Source: Bolinopsis microptera (taxonomy: Eukaryota > Ctenophora > Tentaculata > Lobata > Bolinopsidae). From it: a stretch of DNA of 64,000 nt. A model generated the notes under the pieces. That model was not told the origin of the DNA and did not search any database. It worked only from the letters and a program-made list of their open reading frames with translations. The translations under genes were made by a program, and so were the position numbers. Positions 32,697-64,000 of this stretch are shown here, piece by piece. The stretch is from NCBI RefSeq assembly GCF_026151205.1, contig NC_087075.1:12818303-12882302 (forward strand), written 5' to 3'. The stretch's first letter is position 1. Every line of letters begins with the position of its first letter.

Positions 32697-35600
32697 CTAA
32701 CCGAGACACTTGCAGTAGAGAATAGGAGCCACGTTTATCTGCTCTAGTATAGCAAATCTTCTCTTCACCCTCACCAAATTCTCTGATATCATGGTGAGAC
32801 GACCGTCACAGTTCCAGATAGCTTTCTGACAGTGTGTCACCCAGTTCAGTCTTATCAGCAGATTCTGGGACAGCTCCTGTAATATGGTTGTCATGGTAAC
32901 CATTTCTATCGCTAGAAAACTAATTCGGAAGCTTCCTCACGGCACATGACACCTAAACAAACCAATTAAATGAGAATCTCAGAACATTTCATATTCATGT
33001 TCTCAAATTATTTGTTATATATTATATAGTAGTATTGAAAGTATTGTCACTCACGGCTTTAGCAGCAGCGAACTTGTTGTAAAACTCGACGAGGGAGCGG
33101 TTGTTGCTGTGTAGTCTCTTCAACTGTTCTCTGTGTGCTACTAACAAATCTGCTAACACTGAGATGTCTCCCTGGACCATGAAACTCTCCTGCTGGTTAC
33201 TGATCGCTGGGGAGGTAACTAATGGTAACTAATGGTAACTAATGGTAACTAATGGTAACTAATGGTAACTAATGGTAACTAATGGTAACTAATGTAACTA
33301 ATGTAACTAACTCCCTCACTCCCTGTACCATGAAACTCTCCTGCTGGTTACTGATCGCTGGGGAGGTAATTAATGGTAATTAATGGTAACTAATGGTAAC
33401 TAATGGTAACTAATGGTAACTAATGGTAACTAATGGTAACTAATGGTAACTAATGGTAACTAATGGTAACTAATGTAACTAACTCCCTCACTCCCTGTAC
33501 CATGAAACTCTCCTGCTGGTTACTGACCGCTGGGGAGGTAATTAATGGTAACTAATGGTAACTAATGGTAACTAATGGTAACTAATGGTAACTAATGGTA
33601 ACTAATGGTAACTAATGGTAACTAATGGTAACTAATGGTAATTAATGGTAACTAATGGTAACTAATGGTAACTAATGGTAACTAATGGTAACTAATGGTA
33701 ACTAATGTAACTAATGTAACTAACTCCCTGTACCATGAAACTCTCCTGCTGGTTACTGATCGCTGGGGAGGACATCTCCGTTACTTTAGTACTGTTTAGT
33801 TTGTTTGAACCTTCTAACTGGTGTTGATTTGTCCGATTACGAAGAATCCAGAGAGCATATAAACTCAAAACTGGTACAATAATCGTCCCTAAAACCACAT
33901 GGGTTCATTGTAACCAATGTGTAGTGGGTACAGTGGGGGCTGCCATATGTGTTGGTCATTTCTGACGTGCAAGTTTGAGTGCATTTTAGGTCATATTGTT
34001 AGCATTGAGTGGAATTATGATTTTTGAAAATTATTAACTGCTAATTAATTAACGTTAAAATTAATTATTGTTAATTACTTACTGTTAGTATTGTTTGCTA
34101 AATTGGTAACTGCTAATTAATTTACGTTAATTAATTACACTTAATTACTGTTAATTACTTACTGTTAGCATTGTTTGCTTGCTCCTCGCATATCCTCTCA
34201 GTCTGTCCTAACAGATTCTTCAGTTGTTGTAACCTTTCTTCCAGTCCTTTGATATCTCTCATTCCTGGATGATAACACTTTAGTTACCATGGTAACACTA
34301 ATGATAACACTTTAAATTACAAATTAATCGAGAGATTTTTTATCTTTGATCTCTCAGAAATTTATTAAGATTACCTCGATAGCTTGAAGAGGTCTCATAA
34401 ATTGTAGATCAACATGATGTCCACTGCCAATTCAAACATTACGAAGAATACCAAACGGTGAAATAACCAATATGAAATTGAAATAAAAAACAACTTGAAA
34501 TAATTGAAATAAGACGACTTCGTGATAAAATGCAGCACAAACCTGGTGCCTGCAAGCTTTGTTTAACCTTAATACATTTCCTTAAATTATAATGGTAACA
34601 ATGGTAACTAATGGTAACTAATGGTAACTAATGGTAACTAATGGTAACTAATGGTTACTAATGGTAACTTATGGTAACTAATTGTAACTAATGGTAACTA
34701 ATGGTAACTAATGGTAACTAATGGTAACTAATGGTAACTAATGGTAACTAATGGTAACTAATGGTAACTAATGGTAACTAATGGTAACTAATGGTAACTA
34801 ATGGTAACTAATGGTAACTAATGGTAACCTGGTGCCTGCAGGCTCTGTTTAACCTTGTCCACCTCCTCCTGTACACGGGGTAGGAAGGACAAGTTGATCT
34901 GATCCATGGCTCTACCACACTGGAGCACTAGCGAGTTAAGGGAGTTCTGGGAGTCTTGTGCTTCTATCCAGTGCAGCAAGGAGATAAACTCACTCTGTGA
35001 GGGAGCAGTGGGTAACGATATTATTTTATTTAAAAAACTTGATCAGAATATTCCAGAATTTTGGTACCAGTGAAGCTAACTGATAGTAACGCTCGAACCA
35101 AAAGAAATAAATTGTATAATGGTAACTAATGGTAACTGGTGATAACTAATGGTAACTAATGGTAACTATCCTACCTTCTTAGAGTCGAGTGTGTGGATAT
35201 TAGGAGACTGCTGGAGATCAAGAGGGCTGTGTCCGGGGTCCGGGGCCCTCATACTCTCAGGATCCGGGGCCCTCATACTCTCTGTTATACCCAGTCCGTG
35301 TTCTTTAGAACACCTGATAACAATGGTTACCATGGTTACATCAAACAAGTAAGTAAGATTATATCATAGGTAGGTAATTATATGGAACCTAGGTAATTAA
35401 ATGTGATTTAAGGTAATTATATGGTAATTATATGGTAATTATATGGTAATTATAGGTTATTATAATATGGTAATTATGGGTAATTAATAATTATATGGCA
35501 CCTGATACTGTCGATCATCTTTGTGTCCTTCATCTGATCTACGATTCCTTTAGTAAGAGGTATCTGAGACAACACCTTCACATCTTCATCGAACTGGGTC

Positions 35601-35838
35601 AGCATAGTACCTGGTGGGTTGTTAAATAATGTTAATATGTTTAATAATATGTGCATAAAACTGTGCAAATATGTTGAATATGTGCATTAAACTGTATGAG
35701 TTGGTGAATATTGAGCTGGATTTGTTTTAAATGCTTTGATAGTAGAAATGAAGTAAAAAGGGGAAGAAGGTCTGATCAAATGAACTAGGTATACAAAATA
35801 ACAATAGGAGGAAATAACAATGGACGTCACCTGTGGTG

Positions 35839-35881
<43 letters not shown>

Positions 35882-37596
35882 AAGTGTTAAAGTGAAACTA
35901 ACTGTAATCGTCTCTGTTCTTGAGGAATGTCTCGTACAGATCGTGGAATATTGCGACCCGTTTCTCAAACCCTACTGTGACCTGATCCAGATTATTGATA
36001 ACAGCTGCCCAACCAGCTCGCTGTAACTCTTGATCCTGTACCTGTACAGGGGGTGAGTGAGTTGAAACACAAGGAAATATTCTTTAGTATAACACATGCC
36101 TCTAATTCTATTGTGCGAGGTAATTTGTAAAGCTCGACTTCTGGTGAAGGTTACCAATCAAATTTAAATCATATCAATACTCCGCAAGCAACCCGCCCTG
36201 GTGTATTAATACAATTGATAACGGAAAGGTATCAATGTAGATGCTATGCTTCGCTATCAATAAATTAATCAAATCGGTACTAATTGGTACAATTACGAGC
36301 TTAAATTAAATAAAACACCTCGAATAGAAACATACCAATTGGCGAGTTCGAGATAAAATGTTCTCAGAATACTTGTGGTAGTCCTTAGCAAGATCTGCTC
36401 CAAACTTTAGTGTTTCGCAAGTCTGGGAGTCTTTCAAGTACTTTTCTAAACGTTCCTGAACAAATAGGGTGTTTAGTGTTTCGCAAGTCTGGGAGTCTTT
36501 CAGGTACTTTTCTAAACGTTCCTGAACAAATAGGGTGTCCCGGGTGTTTAGTGTTTCGCAAGTCTGGGAGTCTTTCAGGTACTTTTCTAAACGTTCCTGA
36601 ACAAATAGGGTGTTTAGTGTTTCGCAAGTCTGGGAGTCTTTCAGGTACTTTTCTAAACGTTCCTGAACAAATAGGGTCTTTAGTGTTTCGCAAGTCTGGG
36701 AGTCTTTCAGGTACTTTTCTAAACGTTCCTGAACAAATAGGGTGTTTAGTGTTTCGATAATCTGAGAGTCTTTCAGGTACTTTTCTTAACGTTCCTGAAC
36801 AAATAGGGTCTTTAGTGTTTCGCAAGTCTGGGAGTCTTTCAGGTACTTTTCTAAACGTTCCTGAACAAATAGGGTGTTTAGTGTTTCGCAAGTATGGGAG
36901 TCTTTCAGGTACTTTTCCAAACGTTCCTGAACAAATAGGGTGTGTTCAGGGCATGTTCGCCATTCAGTTATTAATTATTATCAAGTTTTATTATCAAGAA
37001 CTACTACTTATTATTAGTTATTAATTATTATTAATTAAATATCAATTAAATATCAATTAATATTTCAGTGATAACTAACCTGCAGGTTGTAGTCCTGTGG
37101 TAAAGCCACGTGGGGTTGAACAATGTGACACTCAATGTTACTCTTACTAAACAGGAAGACAGGCTGGTCGAGTGAGAATGAGGTGATGTAGTGGTACAGC
37201 TGCTGGGAGGCATCCAGCGCTCTGCCATCGTGTGTTAGCAGCACCTGCAACAAACTAGTTGGTAACTAATGGTTACTAATGGTTACTTATGCAAATGGTT
37301 ACTAATGGTTACTTATGCAAATGGTTACTAATGGTAACTAATGGTAACTAATGGTTACTAACTTGGTACTATTCATTGGAACTGCAAGAGATTCAGTCAA
37401 CACACAAAATAATTAAACCACTGCAGCCACCAAAACCCTCAAACGGAACACAAGGAAATATTTCTTCACTGACCTGTTTATCAAGAGGGATATCAGCAAG
37501 GTCGGAGAGGATGACCTGGAGGTCCTGAACCCTCTTGGAGATGACACTCTGGTCTAAGGGGAAGAGCTTGCCAGCGTCCACTAGGAACACGTTCAT
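32697..37596 (-). CDS. RB1CC1: RB1CC1/FIP200-like autophagy scaffold, N-terminal half only
   Basis: Ten exons (minus): 37596-37474, 37244-37080, 36455-36336, 36041-35903, 35610-35502, 35313-35175, 34994-34829, 34264-34163, 33206-33055, 32876-32697. Phases agree throughout and give 464 aa. It starts with the ubiquitin-like fold (MNVFLVDAGKLFPLDQ; LDQPVFLFSKSNI, compare NPIFLFNKEMI in human). Then come DQELQRAGWAAVINNLD (human DEHLQHQGWAAIMANLE), LLHWIEAQDSQNSLNSLV (LLDWINVQDRPNDVESLV), IKGLEERLQQL and LIRLNWVTHC..APILYC. FIP200 scaffolds the ULK1-ATG13 autophagy-initiation complex through this N-terminal dimer region. The family's long coiled coil and C-terminal Claw domain are absent: a TAG stop follows LYCKCLG. 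Either this is a short isoform/gene, an alternative last exon, or the 3' part lies elsewhere. Arrays flank most exons. Confidence 0.88.
33214..33775. repeat. GGTAACTAAT satellite with four copies of an exon edge
   Basis: Three blocks of a 10-bp unit (33218-33300, 33368-33475, 33538-33720) alternate with about 48-bp copies of the start of RB1CC1 exon 9 plus its acceptor (real one at 33206; extra copies at about 33315-33362, 33490-33537 and 33726-33773). Each extra copy keeps the pyrimidine-CAG acceptor and about 35 bp of exon. Confidence 0.95.
34590..34830. repeat. GGTAACTAAT satellite at RB1CC1 exon 7 donor
   Basis: About 24 copies of the 10-bp unit start exactly at the exon 7 donor (34828). 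On its far side (34533-34562) lies a second copy of the last bases of exon 7, CTTGCAGGCACCAG with its GT, so the array separates two copies of the donor edge. Confidence 0.92.
35390..35490. repeat. GGTAATTATAT short array beside exon 5 donor
   Basis: About seven imperfect copies of an 11-bp unit lie just intronic of the RB1CC1 exon 5 donor at 35501. Confidence 0.75.
35837..35886. repeat. GAAAGT hexamer array beside exon 4 donor
   Basis: Eight copies of a hexamer, 11 bp from the exon 4 donor of RB1CC1. The same hexamer in the other orientation abuts an AP4M1 donor at 54012-54058. Confidence 0.92.
36411..36950 (-). repeat. 66-bp array containing RB1CC1 exon 3 acceptor, eight units
   Basis: Units begin at 36411, 36477, 36552, 36618, 36684, 36750, 36816 and 36882 (period 66, once 75). 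On the minus strand each has CCCTATTTGTTCAG (a good acceptor) followed by exon sequence coding ERLEKYLKDSQTCETLNTLFVQ. Because 66 and 75 are multiples of 3, the five acceptors nearest the exon (36455, 36521, 36596, 36662, 36728) keep the frame and would add 0, 22, 47, 69 or 91 residues. The sixth unit carries an in-frame TAA. Confidence 0.95.
37258..37365. repeat. GGTTACTAAT/GGTAACTAAT array beside RB1CC1 exon 2 acceptor
   Basis: About ten copies of the 10-bp unit, with ATGCAAATGGTTAC variants, begin 13 bp upstream of the exon 2 acceptor (37245). Confidence 0.88.
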
Positions 37597-37599
37597 CTC

Positions 37600-38460: not shown

Positions 38461-38464
38461 AACG

Positions 38465-41955: not shown

Positions 41956-42151
41956 CATGTCCAAACCCAGGATGCACTACATGAAGAATTCGTTGTAACT
42001 TTGTTTGAAAAGCACTAATAGTCAATTAATAAATTTTCCCATGTGTCCATTATTTCATGTTTTACATCGCCGGGCCTTCACACCGTATAACAGTGAAACG
42101 TGAAAGGGAACTATAGACGAGTGAGACAGTATTGAACTTGCAACATTAGAG

Positions 42152-42650: not shown

Positions 42651-45600
42651 TATTGGCTAAAACAAGAATCCATGCCATCAAGACGAATATCAAATAAATA
42701 ACACATGTAAATTGTTTGTAGTTAAACCAAAAGGAAAGTGCCACGAAGGGTCCATAACAAACGTCTACGTAGTGCAGCTCAAAAGTTTGAAGCGATCAAT
42801 TAACTAATCACATCAGTAATGATGTAATTAACTGATTGAATGAGTAATTATGTAATTACCCTGAACAGTAACCAGCCACTCCTCATCTTCCTCTTCTTCG
42901 TCAGGAACTGGAGAGGAGGAACCACTTGTCGGAGCTGAAGATGTCGTCATCATCTCACTCTGCGGAGGAGAAATGCTTAAAATTATTTCGTAGGCCCTAA
43001 AATAACTCCTGCAGATCCAGTCTTAACCTTAAATTGAACATAACTCACTAGCTGAAAAAGCTCTGATACGTCAGATTATAACCTGCAAGACTGACCTCCA
43101 GCTCGCCATTTTTGAGATTCAAGCAAATCGAGGATGTTCAAAGGATGTAGGATGTTCAGCTCGACAAAATACCGGTGGAAGATATTTTGTAAAGTATAAT
43201 CGTTAAAGAAGCGATTATCATCGCTGATTAAAAAAATCATTTTTTGGAAACTTGCCAACAATCTAACCTGTATTAGTTGTGAAATATAATCGTCCTTCAG
43301 CGCACTGACAGGGGTCTCCGTTCTGGAGACTTCAGCTCCAGTTAAACTATCATTAGAGTTAGTACTGTAGTTACTGTTTATTACTGTGCTCTCGGATAGC
43401 CAGATGGGGAGCTCCTTTTTCTGGGTTTCTGTCTTGTCGTTATCACCCGCAAGGTTTACCTTTATTGAATTTTCCTGTTGGAAGATAAATGTTACACTAT
43501 AAAAGGAGATTTGTTTAAACTTATAATCATAAATAGTAAATAGTAAAATCATAACTGAATCATTGCTATAACGAAGTTGATCATCCACAACAAGTTTCTG
43601 CCATCTAATTTCAGGCTAGAGCATTCGACTTTTAGTAACCAAAGCTAAGCGGATCAGAAACACTTTTAAAAGAAACATTTTAAACAGAAACACTTATTTA
43701 GTGAAAGAGAAACACTTTAAACTCACCGCATAAAGGTTATATTCTTTACGGTTGTTCTGCCACAGAGGAATGTTTTTAGTTCGTTTTTCTGCTATTTTTA
43801 ACTTTAGCGGCTCTGGCGCCAATAAATCCTCTGTAAAATGATGTAAGTTACATTTTTCAGAAGAATTATATCCAAAACACATATTCAGGGAACAGAACAA
43901 ATAAAGGGTTATTTAAAATGAAGCTGGCAGAATGCCAGAATTATGGTAGGTTGCAGAAGTCTGAGTTATACATAATACATTTTTATAGGACCAATAATAA
44001 TTCTCACCTGAAAGTTTGGTATTATCAGTTATTTTGAGGTATTCAGTAAATGATTTAGTCTGTTCGTTAAAGAGCGACACTGAACTCCTGTCTTGCAGAG
44101 TCTTTAACTGTGCCTGTGGAGAGCATTGTAACTCTTGGAGGTGGCAACATCGGTTCTTTGATGATAGTGTAAACGCGATAGCGTTAGCGATAACAAGTGC
44201 TGGATGGCATCATCCAGCGCTATCCAGCGTTAATTAGCGCTGGATGGCGCTAGCTATCGCGTTTACACTATCGCAAAAGACCCGAAACAGCTGAATCTTT
44301 TGTAGCATGACGATAAGATATATATATATATAAGATATTCGTGCACAACGTCAAAATTGAAAACAAACTGCCACTATATTACACACTATTACAATAGTAA
44401 ATAACTTATCGTGAAACTTTGATTTCATTTTGGGATATTATGGGGGACATAAAGATGGGGGTTTTTTTTTGATTCCCCAAATTTCCCCAAAATTTCTCAA
44501 CATTCTCCAAAATTCCCCAAAATTCCCTTAAAAATGACTTCTCAAATGACTTCTAAAATGACTTCCCCCAAGTTACCTCATCCTCAACTAGCTCAGTGTC
44601 GCAGTGCTGGCAGAGCAGTGTTCCTGTTTCCAGGTCTATAAGATCCTTTACATCTAGATCACTGAACCTGTGCATTTAGTAATTGATAATCTAGTAATTG
44701 ATAATTAAGTAATCGATAATTAAGTAATTCATAATTTAGTAATTCATAATTTAGTAATTCATAATTTAGTAATTCATAATTTAGTAATTGATAATTTTGT
44801 AATTGACAAATTTAAAGATAATAGAGCACCTGTGGTTTCTAAAATTCATGTACTGAAATTCCATTTGAACGGAACCTCTTTACCTCAAACTAACCTCTTT
44901 ACCTCAAACTAACCTCTTTACCCCAAACTAACCTCTTTACCTTAAACTAACCTCTTTACCTCAAACTAACCTCTTTACCTCAAACTAACCTCTTTACCTC
45001 AAACTAACCTCTTTACTTCAAATTAACCTCTTTACCCCAAATTTGGTAACTGTGATAACTAACCTAAGATAACTTGGTAACTATGGTAACTAACCTAAGA
45101 TAACCTCAAACTTGGTAATTATGGTAACTAACCTAAGATCACCTAAACTTGGTAACTATGGTAACTAACTTGGTAACTATAAACTATGGTAACTACGGTA
45201 ACTAACCTAAGATCACATGATTTACACAGGTGGAACTGACAATTCTGATGGAGCTGGTCGTCCTGATCTATCTTCTTTCTCATTCTGTCTAACTTGTACT
45301 TGACAACGTCAATAAATACTTTGTAGCTGGAACATAAAGCTGGTTAAGACTATAAAATAACTTTCAGTTCTATATCTTCCAATCGTAGTAAATTGGTGAC
45401 AAAATGTATGTTAAATCATTTGATTAGCTACTTAATTATAATTGATAACATGGTACCGGTTAGTAACCAGATAATTATTATTAAATACAAGTTCTAAACA
45501 AGGAAGGGGTTAGTTAGAGACCACAGCCCAAGTCTAATATTTCCTCCTCCCCCCCCCCCCCCCCCCCCCCCAATATAAACCTGATAAAATAGTGATTGAA

Positions 45601-46868
45601 CTTGACCCCCCAATATAAACCTGATAAAATAGTGATTGAACTTGACCCCCCAATATAAACCTGATAAAATAGTGATTGAACTTGAGTACGCCCCCGCCGG
45701 GCCCCAGTTCCTCTTTCTCTCCTTTAGTTATACTTTTTATCAACTTGTCTTTCCTTAGAGTTTCTAGACTTGCCCTCACCTGAGACACAAAAAGTGTTAA
45801 ACTTTGACGAACATCAAGTACCTTTAAAAGCATTCGTTATAATATTTACCTTCACTGAATTTTACATGATTCTCAAAAAGAAGTCCGAATCTTATTTAAT
45901 TAAATTCTGGAGAGATTTCATACATTTTAAAGCTCTAATACATGTCTGTACATGCTTTTCGAATAAAAGGGATATTCTCATGTACAAGTAGGATCACTGT
46001 GAAGACTAATCTAACACTCAGTTACAATGCCCCTTCAGATTCAGTTACTTCCTACTCCTAACTCCACAAATGTGTAAAGTGTAAACATTTCAACTCCAGA
46101 TACAACTGTTTTAAACTATTTGCAACTGAAGATCATCAGATAACTTAGTAAAACCCCGATTTACCGTTTGGGGGAAAGGAAGCAACCGCGGTTAACCTCG
46201 GTCTTGTAACATTATGCATGTTAAGCCCCGCTTAGGGAAAGAAATAGCCGCGGTAGATCGGGATTTGCGGTAAATCTGGGTTCTACTGTTGCTACGAACA
46301 TACTTCTCATTAAATTTTTTTTTGATAAAAAAAACGAACATGTTTCTTGTCGAATTTAAGAAGTTCGATGATGGTACGAACATGTTTCTTTTCGAATGAA
46401 AGAATTTAATTTTTGGTACGAACATGTTTCTTGTCGAATTTAAGAAGTTCAATGAGGTCGTCTTCTCTGATACACGGATGCTTGAGGAGAATATCAATGA
46501 TGAGGGCCTCCTCAGCACGGTAAAACGTGTTGGCCACCATCTTTATCAGCTGCCTCATATCCTGCGTTATCTCTGGGAGGGTGGTTACCAGTTTACAGTT
46601 AGTGTAATATACATTATACATTATACGTAATCTGGGTAAAATTATCTTTAAAAAATCAGGACATTTTTTATGAAACACACTGTACATTGTTTTATTTGTG
46701 CTGATAATATCTGTTTTGGTCCAGCTTTTTAAAAAGTATTGTTTTTGACTATAATGTTTTTAATGATGGAGTGTACTTGGTTTTAAGAGGAAATACAAAC
46801 ATACTAAGATAAAATAATCTCAACAAACCTTTGAGGCCATCTTCAGAATCCACCTCCAAGTTACTCAT
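42297..46868 (-). CDS. GTF2E1: General transcription factor IIE subunit 1 (TFIIE alpha)
   Basis: Ten exons (minus): 46868-46829, 46572-46424, 45779-45661, 45326-45207, 44667-44577, 44113-44008, 43830-43727, 43474-43268, 42959-42860, 42412-42297. All have GT-AG ends and matching phases, giving 383 aa (human 439). TFIIE alpha recruits and stimulates TFIIH at Pol II promoters. The winged helix reads MRQLIKMVANTFYRAEEALIIDILLKHPCIREDDLIELLKFDKKH-VRASLETLRKDKLIKS (human [33 protein letters not shown]). The zinc ribbon is C-x2-C-x21-C-x2-C (LCKSC..LLCQHC), identical spacing to human. Then come SLFNEQTKSFTEYLKIT, ELPIWLSESTV, the acidic stretch DEEEEDEEW, and a C-terminus SKMTDKEKELYDQ like human AQMTPEEKEAY. 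The start is the first ATG of a short first exon (MSNLEVDSEDGLKE). Several splice edges are tandemly duplicated. Confidence 0.93.
43870..44007 (-). other. Intron 6 of GTF2E1
   Basis: Ordinary short intron with no visible array, in contrast to its neighbours. Confidence 0.6.
44163..44272. repeat. 110-bp hairpin MITE in GTF2E1 intron 5
   Basis: The tips GATAGTGTAAACGCGATAGC and their complement enclose nested GCTGGATGGC/GCCATCCAGC repeats. It lies about 50 bp upstream of the exon 6 acceptor. It is GC-rich compared with the intron and has no ORF. Confidence 0.85.
44680..44815. repeat. TAATTCATAATTTAG array beside GTF2E1 exon 5 acceptor
   Basis: About nine copies of a 15-bp unit start 10 bp upstream of the acceptor at 44668. 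Confidence 0.85.
44875..45200. repeat. Two arrays in GTF2E1 intron 4
   Basis: An 18-bp unit, CCTCTTTACCTCAAACTAA, repeats about nine times (44878-45043). A looser unit, TTGGTAACTATGGTAACTAACCTAAGATAACC, then repeats up to the exon 4 donor at 45206. The TAACCTAAGATCAC part of that unit contains the donor edge of exon 4 (CTTAG-GTTA), so the donor is again copied several times. Confidence 0.9.
45580..45695 (-). repeat. 40-bp array with three copies of GTF2E1 exon 3 donor
   Basis: Each unit holds, on the minus strand, CAATCACTATTTTATCAG followed by GTTTATATTGG: the end of exon 3 and its donor. Donor copies are at 45660, 45620 and 45580. Only the first keeps the frame into exon 4, as 40 is not a multiple of 3. 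A 22-base C tract ends the array. Confidence 0.95.
46149..46290. mobile_element. Pogo/Tigger-type MITE
   Basis: The left tip AGTAAAACCCCGATTTACCG and right tip CGGTAAATCTGGGTTCTACT are near-complements of 19-20 bp, with internal CCGCGGT-like inner repeats. The tip sequence is typical of the pogo/Tigger group, whose elements use TA target sites. A partial relative lies at 50055-50150. Length about 140 bp, no ORF. Confidence 0.75.
46290..46445 (-). repeat. 43-bp array with copies of GTF2E1 exon 2 donor edge
   Basis: Copies of the last exon 2 bases (minus: AAATTCGACAAGAAACATGTTCGT) occur at about 46418-46442 (real), 46375-46398, 46333-46357 and, decayed, 46293-46315. Each keeps the GTTCGT donor. 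Confidence 0.9.
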
Positions 46869-51000: not shown

Positions 51001-54000
51001 CTGTAACCATGGTATTTAAAGAGTAGTGGGAAGGTAGTCTGATTGTTATGAAGTGTGGTAACTACACTGTTACCATGGTATTTAGTGTGTTGCTTGCACT
51101 TTGCACTGCATTCTTTAAGTCCGTGCTTTTATTTAATTTTTTTACAGTTTTTAAGGGGGGGGGGGGGGGGGGGGGGGGGGGTTCACACATTTTTTTGTGA
51201 AACTTGGTTTCGAGATAGCAGTTGACCAACAAACCAAGACCGGTGACCTAACTTTTGAGGGGGTCCCCGACCCTAACTGCCAAACGCCCATATTTGGTCC
51301 AAATTAGGCCCAATTTAACCAAATACCCTGAGCATGCCCAAAATCCAGATGCTCTACTTGTAGCTAGTGGTCCCCTGAACTCGTATATGAATTTTCATCA
51401 AGATTGGACAACCAAATATGGTCATATGGTTTTTGGCTCATAACTCAGTCATTTTTTGTCCAATCTTGATGAAAATTCATATACGAGTTTGGGCTTGTTC
51501 AGGGTATAATTTGGTTAAATTGGGCCTAATTTGGACCAAATATGGGCGTGGCTGCCCCGCATGCACCGTTTGGCGGTTGGGGTCCGGGACCCCCTCAAAA
51601 ATTCGGTCACCGGTCCTAGTTTGTTGGTCAACTGCTATCTCGAAACCAAGTTTCACAAAAAAATCAGGGTGAACCACCCCCCCCCCCCCCCCCCCCCTTA
51701 ACTTGTATAGTTTTTAACTTGTATAGTATCTAAAATTAAGATTCCAGTCGCTCCAAAAATGATTCCCGTCTGTTGCAATTGTACGCAAATCATCAAGTAA
51801 AAGATATCTTACATTTTACAATATAAATTGCAAATTCCGGTCATTCCGTTAACCTAATTAAGCGAGTAAAAAAATACATTCTAATTAAATAAATTAGCAG
51901 AAACTACGATGAAGTTTTGATATTAAGTTCTTTGTTTTGGGGAAAAATTAGACTTGGGCGTTGTTTTTTAACTATCTATATCCCTTGTTTAGAACTTTTA
52001 TCTAATAAAATTTGTAGTCTAACAGAAACATGAAGGTGTTCATTTTACTGGTTGCAGTGTTCGCAGTCGTCTGTGTCAACGCTATTGAAGAGGAAGGTCG
52101 GTCCACTCTTTATTATACATCAATATTAATTATTTAATCAATTAATTAATTGATATAGTTGTCATTTTATTATTCGATAAACTTCATTTGTATCTCATTG
52201 CTAAGTAAATAAAATTGTAACTATTTGTCAATCGTGTAGAAATAAAATTTCTCTCATCTTACTATAGATAAAGCGAGACGATATATATACATTATATATA
52301 TATAATATATGTTTATCCGTACCATTTTACTGACACCACGGCATCAACTTTAACGCGACTTTCCGAAAAAACCGTAAAAGAAACTTTTTTGACTGGGTCA
52401 AATGCTTTAATGCTTTTCAAATCAGCATTAAAAAATAAAATATTGGTCATGGAATAAGAATTTTAGTGCCAAAATTTGGACCCCCAAGAGGTGTCAAAAA
52501 CGCGAATTAAATAGATAATAATTATTTTACTTTTAGTCTCGACACTATTTAAATTAGGGTTAGACGGTATCATGCTAATGACTGTAAAGTGTCTTTTAGT
52601 TACTTCCTTACAACTAAACGACATTTTAGCGATTAAGACTAACAGTGCTTGTGTTTCCAGACAATTTCCCTGAGCTCGAGGGTGAACTACCAGAGACCGT
52701 TGATTTAATGGAGGAGGAAGCTGCAGAGATGGAGATGGAAGAGAGGAGGGGAAGAAAAAAAACTGTCCGAAATTTAAAAGGCCAAGGGCAATAACTCGTA
52801 CTGTTGATTAATAAAGAAAGATGCAGTATTGGACTGATTAGTGATTTTAACTAAATACGACATTTAAAGTTAAAGTTGCTGGATGACTAAGTTTTAGGGA
52901 TAGTTTATAGATCAAAATTAAACATTACTAGACATTAGTATATATTTGTTATCACCCTGTCTTATTATCTAATTAAAATAGAAATAACCTTCAAATAATA
53001 TAATAAAAATTGTGTTTATGATATGTGTATTGTGTAATCTTTTTTTCAATACTTGATAATTCGAATTTTTATTTTTGCTTCCAAAAGTCGAGCATTCATA
53101 AGTATAGCTATTAATTCGAGCATATGGCTTACCTGATCAATATCTCAAACACCAGCTGTTAAAAGCTTTTAAAAGCTGATTAGAGCCAGTTAAAAGTCTG
53201 ATAAAAGCCTGTAGAGGGCCGCGTAACAACCGCTGAAGACTTTAACAATCGGAGCTGTGAACCATATCCGGGTACACTTTGTGTATTTTACACGTGCAAA
53301 ATAAGAAACTGTATACAATCACACGTGTAGTAGGGTTGTGAAATGAATTACACGTGTAGTAGGGGTGTGAAATGAGTTACACGTGTAGTAGGGGTGTGAA
53401 ATAAGTTACACGTGTAGTATGGGTGTGAAATGAGTTACACGTGTAGTAGGGGTGTGAAATGAGTTACACGTGTAGTAGGGGTGTGAAATAAGTTACACGT
53501 GTAGTAGGGGTGTAAAATGAGTTACACGTGTAGTAGGAGTGTGAAATGAGTTACACGTGTAGTAGGAGTGTGAAATGAGTTACACGTGTAGTAGGGGTGT
53601 GAAATGAGTTACACGTGTAGTAGGGGTGTGAAATGAGTTACACGTGTAGTAGGGGTGTGAAATGAATTACACGTTTGGTGTTAACGAGATCATTTGATAG
53701 TTGTTTAGTATTAATATAGATACTTTATCGGATTACATTTGGTCGGACATCACGTATAGTCAGTGGTGGAGGGTTTAGCCCTCACACAATGTCCAGCTAG
53801 AATATATTATGTTCAAAGAAATTGTTGTGTCCATAACTATATCCACTCCAAAATAATGTCCGTCCACGAATGTCCGTCCAGATAAGATCCGGTAAGTTCT
53901 CTCCTGTAACAACTGTTCGCTGGACAAGTTTCCTGTACAAAATAATCAAGCCCAACAAGATGTTCACCTTTTGTCAGTTTGGATGTTACGCTAGAGTTTA

Positions 54001-54014
54001 GTCGTCATAAACTT

Positions 54015-54051
<37 letters not shown>

Positions 54052-57000
54052 CACTCACCTCTTGTTAGTGGGGATGTTACACTTGAGTTTTATCGTCATC
54101 ACCACCTCTTTACAGTCGGGATCAGCAGATGAGGTTACTGACATACGGAAGGGGAGCGGGTTCTTCAGCTTATCTGAAACAATTAGCAATTTCGATTAAA
54201 ACATTCCGCATAGAGGGTCCGCAGTAGTCACATTACCTTAGTTATATTGCTGTACAACTACTACTAAAACATTAATTAATATACTCACTGATCTAGACCC
54301 TCCCCCCAACCTGAAACAAATGCCAAGGTAATTAAGTAAAGAAGTAATTACGTAATTATACCGATTACCTCTGATAATGTAGGTAAAGATAACACATTCC
54401 CCAACGGGAGGTTTGAAGTGTAACGTTCTCTCTGAGCTGAACAACTCTCTGTTAACACATTTGTGGAAACAACACTCGTCCAGAACAATCGCTGAAATAA
54501 ATAAATATTTATTTAATATTAATATTAATATTAATATTAATATTAATATTAATATTAATATTAATATTAATATTAATATTAAATAAATAATAAATATAAT
54601 TCTTGGTGAGGGATTAGTTTCAAGTGATAGTGGATCAAGTCCTTCCTTAGATAAGCAATATGACGTAATTCAAATCAAATGTAACAAGAAGTTCGTGGAA
54701 TCATCACTATCCTAGTCTCCTACGTGTTGATATCCCTTAAGTATACTACTTTCCCATGACGTCACACCACGTGCCATGACATCACACCACGTGCCATGAC
54801 ATCACACCACGTGTCATGACGTCACACTACGTGTCATGACGTCACACCACGTGTCATGACGTCACACCACGTGTCGTGACGCCACACCACGTGTCATGAC
54901 CTCACACCAAGTGTCATGACGTCACACCACGTGTCATGACGCCACACCACGTGTCATGACGTCACACCACGTGTCATGACGTCACACTTACCTTTCTTTT
55001 TGTACTCGGGAGGTGTGCCCCCTACAAACAGATCTCTGTTTAACATTATCTTGAGGTCTGGGGCCCCATGAAGGAAGCTCTTCAGTCTGATAGAGCCGTG
55101 TATAGCTGCCGAGGAGATGTCACCGTCACGTTCCACCGTTATGTTCAACTTCTCTATCACATCTGGTGTGACAGTGTGTAAATAGTTAGTGGTTATACTG
55201 GACACCTCGTTAACCCAATCAATGTCTGGAAGACAGATCACCGTGAGACCCCGGATCTCATGGGGCCTAGTGGTTAGCCACCGTGGTTTGTGTGGGATTA
55301 AGAGCTACGAAGTGTTCAGTGAAGTTACACCAACTGTTACGCTGACTTTATTGATGGTGGAACCGCATGATACTGGTACTGATAATTAATCTATTAATGA
55401 CGTGGTTAAACTTGATGGGTCGTTTGCGACCCGGACGAGTGCAAGTGGGTCGTATGCGACCGCAGTTAGGACACAGCGTCTAGCTCTGTTTGTGAACATC
55501 TGATTATCACGGGCTTTTCGCTAGCATTCAAGAAATCGTTTCCCGCAACTTTTGTCGCATAGCAACCGTGGCATTCATGACGTTTTAATGAAGGCCAGAA
55601 GTTAATTGGAATAATTTCCAGTTATCACGACTAAGTAACTAAATTATCTAATTGTTAGTTACTCATTAGGCCCATATTCCGAACTAAATAATGTAGCCTA
55701 ATAGTTTTGAACATCCGTGCATAAAATTTTTGTAATCAAATATTTTGGTTTGTCATCCATAGCCTCTAGAAAAGATGCGTCGTCAACGACTCTATCGTCC
55801 CTAATGGTTTAATATCAATTGAGGATTGGGCACCGTTTCAGTATCATTGTTTCTTTAGTCTAAAACACCATGTACATTGTACTATAACATAATAAATGTA
55901 TAATATAAGAGGTAAGTGTATTAATATACTGTAGACAGTTACACCGGCCACAGCTAAGTATGCCAAAAAAGGACCGGCCCCTCATTACATCACCAGAAAT
56001 ATAAGAATGGAGCGAATTGCGAGAGCTCAGATAGGATGAGCTTTCGCTCCATTCTTATATTTCTGGTCACGGAAATCCAATGGTTCCATCACGAGTCTGT
56101 TTACTTTGTAAATGAAACATAAGAAGTGTGAAACACAATGCTTGTGCTTGATATCCGATCCACTTTTATTTCAGTTCCTGATCAACGCATCAAGTTCCGT
56201 CAAACGAGTTACACTAACTCTTTTGTCTTCACACGCTGGCCACGTTTCTGTTTATCAAATTACGGACCACAGAAATATTCCGTGTTGGTTTCTTTATATC
56301 ATTCACACGTAATATATAATATAATTGCGCGCCAGTGTGTTTGTTTGCTTTCAAAGTTCACTCGTTATTAACTCGTTATTCAGTAATTGTGTCGCTGTGT
56401 GTTTGCGTTGCTAATTGCTTTGTGCAATCCGAACATTCCCCTGTGATTTAGCTCGCATTTAACTCGATTTTTATTTCTGCATTTTTTTTACTCTTGCGCT
56501 ATAATTTATTAATTACTAACGTTAGTTATGAAACTCTGAGTTTGATTATATTAATTTCCGCATTTTTTTAAATGTTTCACTATAATTACTATCGTTATTC
56601 GTTAGTTGTAATATTCATAGGGAGTTATTTAAATCATCCCTTAATTAAAATCGAATTCCTGAATTGATTATGGGATAAGTTATATAGATTTATTTTACCT
56701 TTCGTATCGATAGTTGAAATCCATATTCAGTGTAACTTACAATCCTATTTTAAGCCTCTCTTGAAAAAGAAGCAGTCCTGGTAACTAATGGAGTCGCGTG
56801 AATATGGTGAGGCAAAGAACCTTGATTATGAAAAAGATTATGAACTACGAGTACTTCATGAAGAAGAAGAATATACGACTCAAATTTGCGAACCAGCAGT
56901 TTGTGAAATTACAAGCTCACCTTCACCAGAATTAGAAAGATGTCCCGATAGCAGGGCAGTATGTCCTGCGACTCTTGAACATTATGTTGATTGCACTCCT

Positions 57001-60000
57001 GATTGGGAACCTGATTATGCAGTAAACTCTGCGACTCTTGATGAACCAGTTATAGAACGTTGTATTCCGAGAGAGAGTCAGTATGAAGAACCAGTATATT
57101 ATAAGACTCAATCTTACGAGCTTTTGGAAGCAGTATGTCCTGCGATTCTTCAATATGATGAACCAGTAGAAAGTAGGACTCCAATTATGAAAAGAGCTGA
57201 ACCAGTGGTTTATGAAATGACAAGAGAGATTCCTGAACCAGTGGTTTATGAAATAACAAGGGAGAGTCCTGAACCAGTGGTTTATGAAATCACAAGGGAA
57301 CCTGAACCAAAAATATATTTAAAATCCGAGATTTTATCTGCAGTATGTTCTGCGACTCTTCGATATGATGAACCAGTAGATTATAAGACTCAATCTTACG
57401 AGCCTATATATAGAGTAGAACCTGCGACTTATCAGAGATACTTAGATCCAGAGGATATAGTACATCCTGAAGCTGATTTTGCAATCGACATACCCGAAAA
57501 CGATGCAAATCGTCAAGAATACTCTGATAATGTCCAAGTGAAAATAGAGCGTGCGGTATGCCCTGCAACTCTTCATGCCATTCCTAACTTCATGCCTCTG
57601 TATAAATATGCTGATACTGACAGTAAGTATTTCGTAGCTGTTAAAGAGGGTCACCGTCGTAGGGACACTCATTTAAGACTGGAACATTTGCGCGAAGAAT
57701 TCGGTTACTCTACAGATGAGGTTAACAAACAAGGAGAGGGCAAGTGGGGCCCTCTCCAACTAGCTGCTGCTTTTGGAGACGTAGACATTGTGGAGGAGCT
57801 GTGTAAGTACAGACGTATAGATCTAGTACAGCAGGATGATGATGACGATACGCCGCTCCATACTGCTGCTTATTGGGATTATGATAGCACGATTGAAATT
57901 ATCTTGAACAGAGCTAAGGATCCAGATGAGGCGAGACTTGCTATAAATATGTCTAACAAAGCCAAGGAGACTCCATTTACTTTCGCCGCAACGCGCTATC
58001 ATAAAAAATCATGTGCTATGATGATCAGGTACAGTCCTCCTCTTGCTTACACATTTCATTTCGTTCATCCTGGGCGGAATCCTGGCACGCACAATGTAGA
58101 AAAAGAAAAAGACAGTGGAATATTTGGAAAATTGCGAACGAAAGAGGCAGTGAAAAATTTTGAGAAAATGAATGAACACATTATTAAGTATCACCAGCGA
58201 AACGGTCAAGGCAAATCCTCTATCAATATCATGATAACTAAAATGCCAGAGTTGGTATTCGAAATCCTGGATAAATCGATAATCACAACTAAAACTGCTG
58301 TCCTCACTAAAAGTAGCAAAGGTTCTGAAAATAAGCATGAAGACATTCAGCGAGTCATCGTTGACTTCGGAGCATTGGAAAACTACGGCGAAGAGGAAAA
58401 GGAGGAGAAAAAGGAAACGAAAGACTCCGAAGTATTGGAAAAAAAAGATGAAAAGGAGCCTCTTGTGACTGTCAATGCGGAGAAGGAGGAGAAAAATACG
58501 AAGAAGAAGGAGAAAAGGGACAAGAAGGAGGAGGAGGAAACAGGAAAGCCTCTAACTTCGGGATATTATAAGCACGGTTCAAACCCGCTCCAGATCATGG
58601 CAAAGATGAATCATAGTCTTCTCACACATCCAGTGGTAGAAGCTTTGATCGTTACAAAGTGGGAAAAATTTGCCAGAACTTACTTCTACATTTTCACCTT
58701 CCTTCTTTACCTTATCTTCTTCTCTGTGCTGATGGGATATCAGTCCACTCAAATCAAACCATTTGAACTTTTGGAAAATGACAAAGCTATTACATCCTGG
58801 ATTGAAAATTCTAGCCATACTTGTGATGAATTTCCCGATGGCTGCTCAAAGAAGAAATCTGGAGAGTGTGATATCTTTGGATACATACTTTTGGTGATGT
58901 CTGCTATTCGCCTATTTCTTGAGCTTCTGGATCTCCTCGATAATGTTTTCAATGGATCAGATCTTGATAGTGGAAGTAATAGCCCTCTTGAAACTGGCAG
59001 AGCGTGGTTGCAAGGTTTGATGAACTATCTTATTGACCCTGAGAACTATTTAGAGGTTATCTTATACGGCAGCTGTCTGTTTTTTTCTCTCAATGTGCTG
59101 GAACCGCAAAGTGTCATGTCCCCTTTTCATTGGAAGATTGGAGCTCTCTCCGTTCTAACCAGCTTTATTAACCTCCTCCTTCTTCTACAAGTATTCCCGA
59201 ATATTGGAATATACATCATCATGTTCTTCAAAATAGCATGGACATTCGTCTCAAAGATATTATCCTTGCTAGTTTTCTTCTTGATCGCCTTTATGGTGGT
59301 ATTCCACATGCTGTTGAGCCACACAAATGTTTTTAGGAAAATACTGTCCGCAGATGCTATCTTCAAGACCTTATCTGCGGGAGTATCTGGAGTCGAATAC
59401 GACGATTACGCCGACCAAGAAATGATTTACCCAACAACAACGCTGGTGGGTCTCATTGCTTTCGCTCTGTTTGTCCAAGTTCTCTTCTTGAATCTTGCAA
59501 CTGCTCTGGCAATAGGAGATGTGGATGCAATCCGAAGTGGAGCGGAAAAGGCCATCAATGCACTTAAAATCAAGCACATCTATAATGCAGAGAGAATAGT
59601 GAATCTCATACAGTGGGTCGCCAAACCCATCTATTGTGGAAGTGCTCTAAACTTTCTAGAACATCAGAAACGATTCCGAAACATGCCAGCAAAGAGATTT
59701 AAGGAAGATCGACTTGCATATATCCAAACATGTACAGAGAAATCAGAGAAATCAAAGCTATGTACAAAGAAATGCACAGGGAAATGCACAGAGAAATCTG
59801 AAGATTTGGTCATTCCATTTTCAGATTTTTATGAACAATTTTTTCATAAAAATTTGTAATATAACTGTTAAATGTCGTAGTAATCATAAATCAAGTATTG
59901 TTCTTTAAACTATATGGAGAATAAACTCACGATTTTAGGTTATTTGCACGTTTGGATCGAAGGAGATTTTACAACGGGTATACATTTCAACTAGAAGAAT

Positions 60001-63000: not shown

Positions 63001-64000
63001 GTGGACTAAGAACAGGTTGGCTCGAATGGCTTTGACGTTGAGAGTGCCACAGTAATCTTTTATTATCTCTGAGATTAGGTTAATTAATTTAATCAGGAGT
63101 ATTAATAAACTGGGACAGTATTGATTGAAGAAATTCTCCGAAAAAATGCCTGTTTCCTGATCACAGATAGAAATTAGAAATAATTCCAACAAACGAGGGA
63201 CAAGAGTAGGCCCATCAGAGTTGGAATGGCCTGACGTCACACCACGTGTCATGACGTCACACTGTATTATGAAGTGCTTATCTCGTATAGGGGGGGGGGG
63301 TTATCGTGAGTATTTTTAAGAGTCCCGACGAAAATGGCAAAATTCTCATTCTCAAAAAAAAATTTGAGCCAGAGAGTGTGCATCTCCAGTTGAAGCTGCT
63401 TGTTGACAGACCGACTTGTCACTTGCATCAGACCGGATTTGAACCCGGGACCTTCTGCATAACACCATCCAGCCGAAAGAATCCCAACATACCGGATAAT
63501 AAATGGAGATACCTGCTAACTCACAAACCTGCTATTCTGCCGAGAGACTCTATAACATAAAGTGGGGAGAGGTCCGGTTCAGCTAGTACCACCACACAGT
63601 AAAGCCCACTACTGAACACAGACACATACGTCTTCTTACCTGGGGGGTAGAAGGGCTCATTAAAATAGCGTGCCTGACAGAATGGAATTATTAGACAGCC
63701 ATTCCTGCCACTAATAACAGTCAGAAAATTTGAATTTTGATGAGGATACTATCTAGCAACAACAGCAGATACTTATGTGTGAATGATTAACGATATGAGT
63801 GGTATGACGTCACACCACGTGTCATGACGTCACACCACGTGACATGACGTCACACCACGTGTCATGACGTCACACCATGTGTCATGACGTCACGTATTGA
63901 AACTTACCAATAACAAGAACTGGAGGTATCCTACTGACACCCTTCTTCTTGATTACATCTATAAAATCCTCTGTAACAGTTCGTGTGAACTGTTGTCTGA
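48074..64000 (-). CDS. AP4M1: AP-4 complex subunit mu-1 (5' end outside window)
   Basis: Exons (minus): A 64000-63908 (partial), B 63639-63590, C 63156-62931, D 62778-62684, E 55225-54992, F 54491-54369, G 54173-54059, H 49226-49070, I 48522-48418, J 48166-48074. AP-4 mu sorts cargo at the trans-Golgi network; the C-terminal mu-homology domain binds tyrosine-type signals. The N-terminal longin-like part reads PPVLVIGKKTYVSVFSSGLYCVV, DYCGTLNVKAI and VHELLEENLDFG (human DYCGSLGEGTI, VYELLDEVLDYG). The mu-homology domain reads IHGSIRLKSFLHGAPDLKIML (human [21 protein letters not shown]), LHFKPPVGECVIFTYIIRG, KNPLPFRMSV, LTIPFPYDV, RVIHWQIPHMDGG and KWARSVTHGENYIFRV-stop. Phases agree except D to E, so a short exon may be missed in that 7.4-kb intron. 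Two plus-strand genes are nested in its introns. Confidence 0.92.
48176..48240 (-). repeat. ATTATAC array between two copies of AP4M1 exon J edge
   Basis: About eight copies of CATTATA separate the real exon J start (CAG-AAACTGAAGGT, 48169-48160) from a second copy of CAGAAACTGAAGGT at 48239-48226. Confidence 0.9.
48545..48812. repeat. 48-bp array in AP4M1 intron H-I
   Basis: About five and a half copies of a unit reading GAATTGTTAGTTACAATTCA then TTTTATTTCTAGCTTTATTT. It begins about 20 bp upstream of the exon I acceptor. Each unit contains an inner GAATTGTAACTAACAATTC-like palindrome. Confidence 0.92.
49205..49568 (-). repeat. 43-bp array with copies of AP4M1 exon H acceptor
   Basis: About nine units. 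On the minus strand each has AACATTTGCAG followed by ATGTTCAGTGATAGGTCT, which is the acceptor and first 18 bases of exon H (true one at 49226). Later units diverge (CATCTTTAAAT). A second array of four units, one with 33 bp of exon (to CCCTTCCCG), lies at 49828-50015. Confidence 0.95.
49617..49644. repeat. C tract of 26 bases
   Basis: A pure C run in the AP4M1 G-H intron, between the two exon H edge arrays. Confidence 0.9.
49828..50185. repeat. Second exon H edge array and MITE piece
   Basis: Four 43-bp units with exon H edge copies (49828-50015) are followed by a relative of the 46149 MITE (AGTAAAACCCCTATTTACCG at 50071 on). One more array unit (50155-50190) follows. The same MITE plus its flank (CAACTGAAAATCATCAGATA) occurs in both places, so flank and element moved together. 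Confidence 0.85.
50186..51150. other. AP4M1 intron DNA with a 23-bp array and a duplicated block
   Basis: TACCTTAGTCTTGAAACCTTAAA repeats about six times at 50685-50815. A block with GATTGGATGCACACGAAATA and TAGTCAGATCCACAACAATA occurs at both 49710-49825 and 50817-50925. No gene seen. Confidence 0.75.
51152..51698. mobile_element. Foldback element with poly-G and poly-C ends
   Basis: Starts with a run of about 26 G and ends with about 22 C. In between, two arms of about 250 bp are near-complements (outer TTTGTGAAACTTGGTTTCGA, inner CAAGATTGGACA..), with a loop near 51420-51460. There is no real ORF; the ORFs on both strands mirror each other. It sits in the AP4M1 G-H intron. Confidence 0.9.
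52030..52794 (+). CDS. Small secreted peptide precursor, 66 aa
   Basis: Two exons: 52030-52096 and 52661-52794. The donor AAG-GTCGGT is weak; the acceptor GTGTTTCCAG is good, and phase 1 agrees. Signal peptide MKVFILLVAVFAVVCVNA, then an acidic propart (IEEEDNFPELEGELPETVDL, MEEEAAEMEMEE), then RR and a basic end GRKKTVRNLKGQGQ. Acidic pro-region, dibasic site and cationic C-terminal peptide is the layout of antimicrobial-peptide and neuropeptide precursors; which one is inference. No Cys remains in the mature part. AATAAA follows at 52810. It is nested in an AP4M1 intron on the opposite strand. Its own intron carries a dispersed repeat (52255-52560). Confidence 0.7.
52255..52560 (-). repeat. 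Dispersed repeat copy 2 (see 16086-16385)
   Basis: Inverse orientation to the copy at 16 kb, same boundaries (AAGCGAGACGATATATATA end and CGAATTAAATAGATAATAAT end). It lies inside the intron of the peptide gene. Confidence 0.8.
52810..52815 (+). terminator. AATAAA poly(A) signal, peptide gene
   Basis: 16 nt after the stop codon, a usual place for a short 3' UTR. Confidence 0.6.
53315..53675. repeat. 29-bp satellite (ACACGTGTAGTAGGGGTGTG)
   Basis: About 12 copies of a 29-bp unit with very low divergence, each containing the palindrome ACACGTGT (E-box core CACGTG). Confidence 0.95.
53676..54011. other. Intron DNA, nothing recognised
   Basis: Part of the AP4M1 G-H intron; contains GTCCGTCCA/ATGTCC short direct repeats near 53850-53885. 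No gene. Confidence 0.4.
54012..54058. repeat. CTTTCA hexamer array at AP4M1 exon G donor
   Basis: Seven copies run directly into the donor: on the minus strand GTGAGTGAAAGTGAAAGTGA. The donor GTGAGT looks like a variant of the repeat unit. Confidence 0.92.
54506..54590. repeat. TAATAT hexamer array
   Basis: About 13 copies of TAATAT, 15 bp upstream of the exon F acceptor. Confidence 0.92.
54755..54990. repeat. 20-bp satellite with CRE and E-box (TGACGTCACACCACGTGTCA)
   Basis: About 12 copies. Each has TGACGTCA (the CREB/ATF palindrome) and CACGTG (bHLH-zip E-box). The array reaches to within a few bases of the exon E donor GTAAGT (54991). The same unit occurs in two other AP4M1 introns (63232-63258, two copies; 63803-63895, about five copies). 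Confidence 0.95.
55226..56787 (+). promoter_or_regulatory. AP4M1 intron DNA and 5' region of the TRPA-like gene
   Basis: Contains a hairpin at 55990-56068 and AT-rich sequence up to the TRP start codon. A purine-rich GAAAAAGAAGCAG and GTAACTA precede the ATG. No intron acceptor is needed, and no TATA box can be named securely. Confidence 0.4.
55990..56068. repeat. Hairpin with 22-bp arms
   Basis: CCAGAAATATAAGAATGGAG and its complement flank a 30-bp loop with its own GAGCTC and GAATTGC pieces. Small foldback or MITE. Confidence 0.85.
56788..59859 (+). CDS. TRPA-like cation channel, single exon, 1023 aa
   Basis: N-terminal 270 residues are low-complexity repeats: AVCPATL-type motif five or six times and EPVVYEITRE three times. 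Ankyrin-type units follow at about 320-345 (GPLQLAAAFGDVDIVEELC), 353-380 (TPLHTAAYWDYDSTIEIIL) and 392-410 (ETPFTFAATRYH). Then NIMITKMPELVFEIL, a Lys/Glu-rich linker (about 535-590), and NPLQIMAKMNHSLLTHPVVEALIVTKW, the TRPA pre-S1 signature. Membrane segments: S1 about 633-651, S2 696-718, S3 754-771, S4 783-803, S5 825-844, S6 884-908. The pore loop is about 848-873 (ADAIFKTLSAGVSGVEYDDY). After S6 comes NLATALAIGDVDAIRSGAEK, then a short tail with CTEKSEKS and CTKKCTGKCTEK. TRPA1 usually has 14-18 ankyrin repeats and many introns; here three are visible and there are no introns, so a retrogene or lineage paralogue is likely. AATAAA at 59920. Confidence 0.88.
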   Translation: MESREYGEAKNLDYEKDYELRVLHEEEEYTTQICEPAVCEITSSPSPELERCPDSRAVCPATLEHYVDCTPDWEPDYAVNSATLDEPVIERCIPRESQYEEPVYYKTQSYELLEAVCPAILQYDEPVESRTPIMKRAEPVVYEMTREIPEPVVYEITRESPEPVVYEITREPEPKIYLKSEILSAVCSATLRYDEPVDYKTQSYEPIYRVEPATYQRYLDPEDIVHPEADFAIDIPENDANRQEYSDNVQVKIERAVCPATLHAIPNFMPLYKYADTDSKYFVAVKEGHRRRDTHLRLEHLREEFGYSTDEVNKQGEGKWGPLQLAAAFGDVDIVEELCKYRRIDLVQQDDDDDTPLHTAAYWDYDSTIEIILNRAKDPDEARLAINMSNKAKETPFTFAATRYHKKSCAMMIRYSPPLAYTFHFVHPGRNPGTHNVEKEKDSGIFGKLRTKEAVKNFEKMNEHIIKYHQRNGQGKSSINIMITKMPELVFEILDKSIITTKTAVLTKSSKGSENKHEDIQRVIVDFGALENYGEEEKEEKKETKDSEVLEKKDEKEPLVTVNAEKEEKNTKKKEKRDKKEEEETGKPLTSGYYKHGSNPLQIMAKMNHSLLTHPVVEALIVTKWEKFARTYFYIFTFLLYLIFFSVLMGYQSTQIKPFELLENDKAITSWIENSSHTCDEFPDGCSKKKSGECDIFGYILLVMSAIRLFLELLDLLDNVFNGSDLDSGSNSPLETGRAWLQGLMNYLIDPENYLEVILYGSCLFFSLNVLEPQSVMSPFHWKIGALSVLTSFINLLLLLQVFPNIGIYIIMFFKIAWTFVSKILSLLVFFLIAFMVVFHMLLSHTNVFRKILSADAIFKTLSAGVSGVEYDDYADQEMIYPTTTLVGLIAFALFVQVLFLNLATALAIGDVDAIRSGAEKAINALKIKHIYNAERIVNLIQWVAKPIYCGSALNFLEHQKRFRNMPAKRFKEDRLAYIQTCTEKSEKSKLCTKKCTGKCTEKSEDLVIPFSDFYEQFFHKNL
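59860..60438. other. 3' flank of the TRPA-like gene
   Basis: AATAAA at 59920-59925 is about 60 nt past the stop. The rest is AT-rich AP4M1 intron sequence. Confidence 0.5.
60439..60726 (+). pseudogene. FLYWCH-type zinc finger fragment
   Basis: Reads SKFIEGQRGSQRLVDTDGYIYSRKK, then YSAWRCRKNN: the F..G..L..DGY.Y...WRC half of a FLYWCH finger. The second Cys and the His pair are missing. A possible GTATGA donor follows at about 60590, so it may be a lone exon. FLYWCH domains are common in MULE-type transposases and in small host regulators; either origin is possible. Confidence 0.45.
60727..61410. other. AP4M1 intron DNA, nothing recognised
   Basis: Includes short CCAGCC/CTAACC pieces near 61310-61365. 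No gene, array or hairpin is clear. Confidence 0.4.
61425..61640 (-). repeat. Dispersed repeat, inverted copy 2 (see 1200-1660)
   Basis: Carries the same blocks as 1200-1660 in reverse complement and in the same relative order. Confidence 0.6.
61855..61881. repeat. C tract of 24 bases
   Basis: Another pure C run, followed by a short AATATC repeat. Confidence 0.9.
62105..62655. repeat. GGTAACTG-based arrays in AP4M1 intron D-E
   Basis: Loose TATCTTGTTACGGTTACCATGACAACTGATA units (62125-62290) are followed by seven clean copies of a 32-bp unit (TATCAGTTGTCAAGGTAACT then GTATCTAGATAC, 62435-62650). The array ends about 30 bp from the exon D donor. Confidence 0.92.
63225..63260. repeat. CRE/E-box 20-mer, short copy in AP4M1 intron B-C
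   Basis: Two copies of the unit of the 54755-54990 array. Confidence 0.9.
63405..63480 (-). repeat. tRNA-derived fragment (SINE-like)
   Basis: On the minus strand the sequence GGTCCCGGGTTCAAATCCGG has a paired T arm and a Pol III B box (GGTTCAAATCC). An anticodon-arm-like CTGGATGGTGTTATGCAG lies before it. The 5' half with an A box is not recognisable, so it is a SINE head or a tRNA relic, not a working tRNA. Confidence 0.5.
63800..63897. repeat. CRE/E-box 20-mer array in AP4M1 intron A-B
   Basis: About five copies of TGACGTCACACCACGTGTCA-type units, ending 10 bp from the exon A donor (63907). Confidence 0.95.

Follow-up and report, generated by a model that had tools for sequence, protein, structure and literature searches.

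The window analysed here, a stretch of 64,000 nucleotides from the ctenophore Bolinopsis microptera, lies on contig C4 of an assembly of 264.65 Mb in 232 contigs. It holds three neighbouring genes, RB1CC1, GTF2E1 and AP4M1, all on the minus strand. Their homology-supported models have 10, 9 and 8 exons respectively, 27 in total, and the reading is open across the exon joins in all three. The RB1CC1 model matches the solved (human) RB1CC1 sequence with an E value of 1.6e-41, and a protein search with the model gave no match at E <= 0.001 among the 7,998 scored candidates that shared most words. This model stops after exon 10, and no further exons were recognised by eye at window position 32702 and below. 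The identity of GTF2E1 is backed by matches to Pfam and to sequences of solved structures, and a DNA search with the gene returned one full-length match, which was the gene itself. The AP4M1 model is an adaptor medium subunit according to Pfam and solved-structure matches. The one exon searched scored slightly higher for AP-1 mu than for AP-4 mu, and the name AP4M1, which follows a preliminary description, is presumptive.

Other features were seen in the window. An open frame similar to TAF1B/Rrn7 (39201-40103, PF20644) lies between long inverted arms (38597-39231 and 40648-41765) consisting of tandem subrepeats of about 178 bp, pairs of which are 70-97% complementary, and the last codons of the frame fall inside one arm. 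The whole structure (38597-41765) is perhaps an element of the foldback type that encloses a host-like gene. A unit of ~500 bp with an open frame occurs three times on the plus strand at 28221-29635. The 6.8-kb intron of AP4M1 contains a single-exon open frame of 1024 residues with ankyrin repeats (56785-59859, plus strand), possibly a TRP-type channel. One monomer of a ~210-bp repeat, which forms tandem runs on many contigs, is found in a GTF2E1 intron (42980-43191).

Splice junctions copied in tandem arrays

The border set comprised 50 exon-intron borders (26 donors and 24 acceptors) from the 27 exons, without TAF1B and without a possible non-coding first exon of GTF2E1. A border was regarded as matched when an ungapped copy within 1 kb ran through it, and the strict rule demanded a score of at least 8 on the exon side and at least 4 on the intron side (match +1, mismatch -1.5). 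Under this rule a local copy extends across the splice site at 7/50 borders, which comprise 5/26 donors and 2/24 acceptors. In RB1CC1 they are acceptors 3 and 9 together with donor 8, in GTF2E1 donors 1, 2 and 3 and in AP4M1 donor 8. RB1CC1 donor 7, where 28 exon bases but 3 intron bases are copied, is an eighth border that passes looser rules only. The count changes little with the cut-offs for exon and intron side, being 8/50 with 8/2 or 10/3, 7/50 with 12/2 or 6/4 and 6/50 with 6/6. The copies of splice junctions in the three genes are real; they are direct copies lying nearby that include the exon edge, the splice dinucleotide and intron sequence.

The features in RB1CC1 are listed below, with a slash at the exon-intron join.

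36336..36455, minus strand: exon 3 (model), open reading through 10 exons
36406..36943, minus strand: exon 3 acceptor array, 66-bp unit of 16 nt intron end and 50 nt exon (TRF)
34829..34994, minus strand: exon 7 (gene model), donor CACCAG/gttacc
34590..34828, minus strand: 10-bp (GTTACCATTA)n array beginning at donor 7 (tandem repeat scan)
34540..34570, minus strand: exon 7 end repeated beyond the array, 28 bp of exon with gtt
34035..34179, minus strand: unit at donor 8, present twice, with the second donor at +80
33168..33771, minus strand: acceptor 9 region, three decoys with TTACCATTAG arrays ahead of the real acceptor at 33206
33055..33206, minus strand: exon 9 (model), open reading and alignment to solved human RB1CC1

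The exon 3 array displays eight acceptors, which share a site score of 6.5 and frame 0. Reading from any of the first three runs into one stop, and the last five are in frame without a stop, which makes this exon a functional oddity. Four of these five lie at 36728, 36662, 36596 and 36521. The last acceptor (36455) fits the gene model, and the protein read from it has no gap here when aligned to solved human RB1CC1. Within the exon part of the unit, CACTAAAC is a putative branch-point-like sequence. At exon 7 the two copies of the exon end have two differences, both synonymous on direct reading, and the array behind the donor resembles many other places in the genome. The 10-bp TTACCATTAG arrays are likewise common to several RB1CC1 introns and to many further genomic places. 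Each of the decoys at acceptor 9 consists of an acceptor with about 39 nt of exon, followed by a TTACCATTAG array.

In GTF2E1 the arrays are found at three consecutive donors.

46334..46455, minus strand: first coding exon donor array, 42 bp x3
45566..45685, minus strand: donor array of the second coding exon, three identical 40-bp units
45034..45213, minus strand: third coding exon donor array, units of about 37 bp

The 40-bp unit is made up of 25 nt of exon and 15 nt of intron, and in the third array the site TCTTAG/gttagt occurs at 45207, 45133, 45095 and 45064. When the 42-bp and 40-bp arrays of GTF2E1 and the 66-bp array of RB1CC1 were each searched against the genome, in a search that skips very common words, they matched themselves only.

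The AP4M1 arrays are of two kinds.

53964..54173, minus strand: exon 8 donor region with exon, array and diverged copy
54059-54173, minus strand: exon 8 (gene model)
54011-54055, minus strand: GTGAAA array behind exon 8 (tandem repeat scan)
53964-53998, minus strand: diverged copy of the exon 8 end with GTGA, beyond the GTGAAA array (alignment)
54755..54987, minus strand: 20-bp array with TGACGTCA and CACGTG at donor 6, abutting the donor from +5

The array at donor 6 begins at +5 of the intron and contains no copy of the splice site or of exon sequence, and the same applies to the array behind donor 1. The 20-bp unit with TGACGTCA and CACGTG is arrayed in introns 1 and 6 and occurs about twice in intron 2 (window 54755-54987, 63804-63893 and 63235-63275).

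The preliminary description had placed copied splice-site edges at RB1CC1 exons 3, 7 and 9, at GTF2E1 exons 2, 3 and probably 4, and at two AP4M1 exons lettered H and J, with units that differ between introns. This is borne out in part. Sequence and alignment bear out acceptor 3, donor 7 and acceptor 9 in RB1CC1, and all three GTF2E1 donors (its exons 2, 3 and 4 being the first, second and third coding exons here) have their 42-bp, 40-bp and ~37-bp units. The correspondence of H and J to the present exon numbers is uncertain; the donor of AP4M1 exon 8 has a diverged copy, and the array at exon 6 has no copied splice site. The copy at RB1CC1 donor 8 had been overlooked. The 66-, 40- and 42-bp units do differ between introns, but the 10-bp TTACCATTAG arrays recur in several introns of RB1CC1 and the 20-bp unit in three of AP4M1.

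Borders compared with their surroundings

Matched borders are far more frequent than in a first-order Markov resample of the window, where 0.3% of positions pass, and than among 1,500 random exon-interior positions of the three genes, where 2.3% pass. They are less frequent than among 1,500 random intron-interior positions of these genes (39.1%, the 6.8-kb AP4M1 intron being left out). When the border map was moved around the concatenated gene spans in circular shifts, the mean was 13.3 matches (sd 2.4) against 6/46 observed, and 1/1,747 shifts was as low as observed; the number is 46 and not 50 because borders at the span ends drop out.

Duplicated sequence covers 6/50 borders at -60, 16 at +1, 24-25 at +43 to +49 and 15 at +150, although in very short introns +150 can be near the following exon. 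The maximum is reached about 40-55 bp into the introns, and the position profile of the 50 borders has no peak at the border itself. The drop deeper in the intron is mainly on the donor side (16/26 at +49 and 6/26 at +150), and the repeats are therefore biased towards donors but do not peak at the splice site. Attraction of repeats to splice sites was thus not seen in the three genes, either in the circular shifts or in the intron-interior rates. The pattern probably reflects selection, which would keep exons clean and let repeats fill introns, with the junctions in between.

Repeat coverage is 0.33 at 32-64 kb and 0.115 in the first half of the window. In 15 arbitrarily placed 10-kb stretches the mean is 0.147 with a range from 0 to 0.47, so the stretch with the three genes is repeat-rich but not unique.

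Other genes in the same genome

Exons elsewhere in the genome were modelled with Pfam matches as a guide (AP mu 12/19 rows, myosin heads 34/73, chaperonins 28/35 and adaptins 17/29). The 91 rows gave 83 exons and 166 borders. Eight rows had no usable exon: two myosin, two chaperonin and three adaptin rows without a candidate and one below the score floor. The borders were chosen by splice-site and codon scores trained on the window, the joined frame being unchecked. None of the 166 borders passes the strict test, and the numbers with other cut-offs are two with 8/2, three with 6/4, one with 6/6 and none with 10/3 or 12/2. Intron interiors of these genes pass at 16.2% and exon interiors at 0.6%.

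Fisher's test of 7/50 against 0/166 gives 2.5e-5. This figure describes a concentration and not an unbiased rate, because the window was picked as striking and the guided genes are strongly conserved. From the repeat density near borders roughly 4 matches would be expected elsewhere by our own arithmetic, and since none was observed, something beyond density may contribute, for example weaker constraint in the three genes.

Ab initio gene finding in 20 stretches, with codon and site tables trained on the window, was also tried and matched 16/232 borders. These counts were not used as evidence because false exons had been placed inside arrays; exon interiors pass at 18.4% in these models and intron interiors at 9.6%. 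Two neighbouring myosin-head matches among the guided genes (C3:9154012-9154203 and 9154255-9154485) cover the same profile stretch (105-167 and 102-167) and constitute a duplicated, perhaps mutually exclusive exon.

A second copy of RB1CC1

A DNA search with RB1CC1 revealed a second copy, 94-96% identical, which may be either an allele or a paralog. Its chromosome and strand are those of the window copy, and it lies 60-75 kb away at C4:12.777-12.792 Mb. The similarity begins 50 bases before the end of exon 4, continues past exon 10 and is interrupted by about 8 kb in intron 6. All differences between the two copies in exons 5-10 (11/11) are synonymous. The arrays differ in unit number: acceptor 9 has one decoy in the second copy against three in the window copy, donor 8 has three units (the middle one without GTAAGT) against two, and the donor 7 array is longer in the second copy. 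The second copy of the exon 7 end has identical letters in both. Junction-spanning arrays have therefore gained or lost units within about 5% divergence. The insertion of an element that duplicated its target site was considered for exons 7 and 9 and set aside, because acceptor 9 has four copies and their number is unequal in the two RB1CC1 copies.

Discussion

The copied junctions are very probably the result of tandem duplications that arose in situ, crossed splice junctions and were tolerated in a repeat-rich stretch. A tandem duplication whose two ends lay in an exon and in its neighbouring intron would copy the exon edge, the splice site and some intron. The copied pieces would then expand, presumably by slippage or unequal exchange and sometimes together with a dispersed 10-bp minisatellite, and the extra junction copies would lie in the intron as decoys. 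Such duplications would be tolerated because the exons can still be joined correctly through one intact junction, and the arrays would cluster here because the stretch is unusually rich in tandem repeats and not because splice sites attract them. To judge from reading frame and homology, the decoys are probably for the most part unused. At the seven junctions besides RB1CC1 exon 3 (GTF2E1 donors 1-3, RB1CC1 donors 7 and 8 and acceptor 9, and AP4M1 donor 8) every alternative site that was examined causes a frameshift or introduces a stop.

The preliminary description suggested replication slippage across borders as part of a genome-wide process that could supply splice sites. Its interpretation is supported in part. 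Duplication across the border was the right explanation, as the change in unit number between the two RB1CC1 copies illustrates, and a supply of splice sites is possible but would be mostly unproductive at the seven frame-breaking junctions. A genome-wide process that targets splice junctions for tandem duplication is most improbable. It might be suggested by the eight junctions that the looser rule finds in three adjacent genes, and by the 66-, 40- and 42-bp arrays, which match nothing else in the genome and therefore arose locally, whereas the 10-bp spacer arrays of RB1CC1 are dispersed. Against it are the absence of strict matches at the 166 borders elsewhere (two when the intron side is at least 2), the under-matched borders relative to circular shifts and the coverage without a peak at the border. 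An assembly artefact is equally hard to credit. Matches to AP-mu on the small contig C100 are like those on the large C9, and an uncollapsed haplotype might account for the second RB1CC1 copy, but there are differences between units inside the arrays, and the same arrays occur with unequal counts in the two RB1CC1 copies.

Two alternatives concern single exons of RB1CC1. At exon 7, by direct reading, AG/GT is present in both copies, which is predicted to permit a precise splice. Since the two bases that distinguish the exon-end copies are synonymous, the exon could end at either AAGGTTAAACARAGCYTGCAGGCACCAG copy and the protein would be unchanged. The arrangement could be the configuration proposed for intron sliding or gain. 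That an intron is being moved or created here by AG/GT tandem duplication is nevertheless unlikely; AAG/GT and CAG/GT are kept in both copies and the two differences are synonymous, but two differences are too few to prove constraint. For exon 3 it is unlikely, though conceivable, that some copies are functional and form a coding variable-number repeat with up to five in-frame acceptors. The shared site score and frame of all eight acceptors, the stop-free reading from the last five and a 9-nt insert that preserves the frame are consistent with this, while 3/8 acceptors lead to a stop and use of the last one alone gives a gap-free alignment to solved human RB1CC1 at this place. A broader suggestion, put forward tentatively, is that tandem duplications spanning junctions have a local hot spot here, where the number of splice sites changes within one genome. 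Exon 3 would then be a self-contained acceptor repeat, where the exon copy of CACTAAAC in each unit might serve the acceptor of the next and give rise to a protein of variable length.

In situ duplication across junctions has parallels in other organisms. In potato, a tandem duplication across an intron-exon boundary made a new intron (PMC4974935), and a single junction-crossing event is therefore already known. The cases are alike in that the duplication crosses the boundary and copies splicing signals; one duplication gave a new intron in potato, whereas the present arrays are multi-copy and found at several junctions, with no intron gain shown. Intron sliding and exon tandem duplication near intron pairs in Drosophila similarly involve duplicated AG/GY proto-splice sites as alternative sites (PMC2891723), but were inferred from intron positions across species and not, as here, from duplicated sequence in one genome. 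The AGGT model of intron gain by tandem genomic duplication (PMC3443670) resembles RB1CC1 exon 7 with its AAG/GT and CAG/GT in both copies, but begins with an exonic duplication, while here an existing junction was copied. Introners are also repetitive sequences with splice signals in introns (PMC9860276). Many similar introns across genes, as expected of introners, were not found for the 66-, 40- and 42-bp arrays (three of the eight junctions); these locus-specific arrays match themselves alone, and therefore do not belong to a mobile family as introners do. Titles found in the literature included none on such a cluster of junction copies in an animal, which is weak evidence given the partial coverage. 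The Hormiphora genome is reported to have 13 chromosomes, a tandem repeat content of 13% and numerous nested genes.

A high density of repeats can give the appearance of attraction to splice borders, and the junction test used here can be repeated in any annotated genome. If the coding repeat in RB1CC1 exon 3 is true, the resulting proteins would carry between 0 and 4 additional units, each of 22-25 residues. The region catches, several times, a proposed step of intron sliding or gain in which an additional splice site lies next to one that works, and this is accompanied by two RB1CC1 copies with unequal unit numbers.
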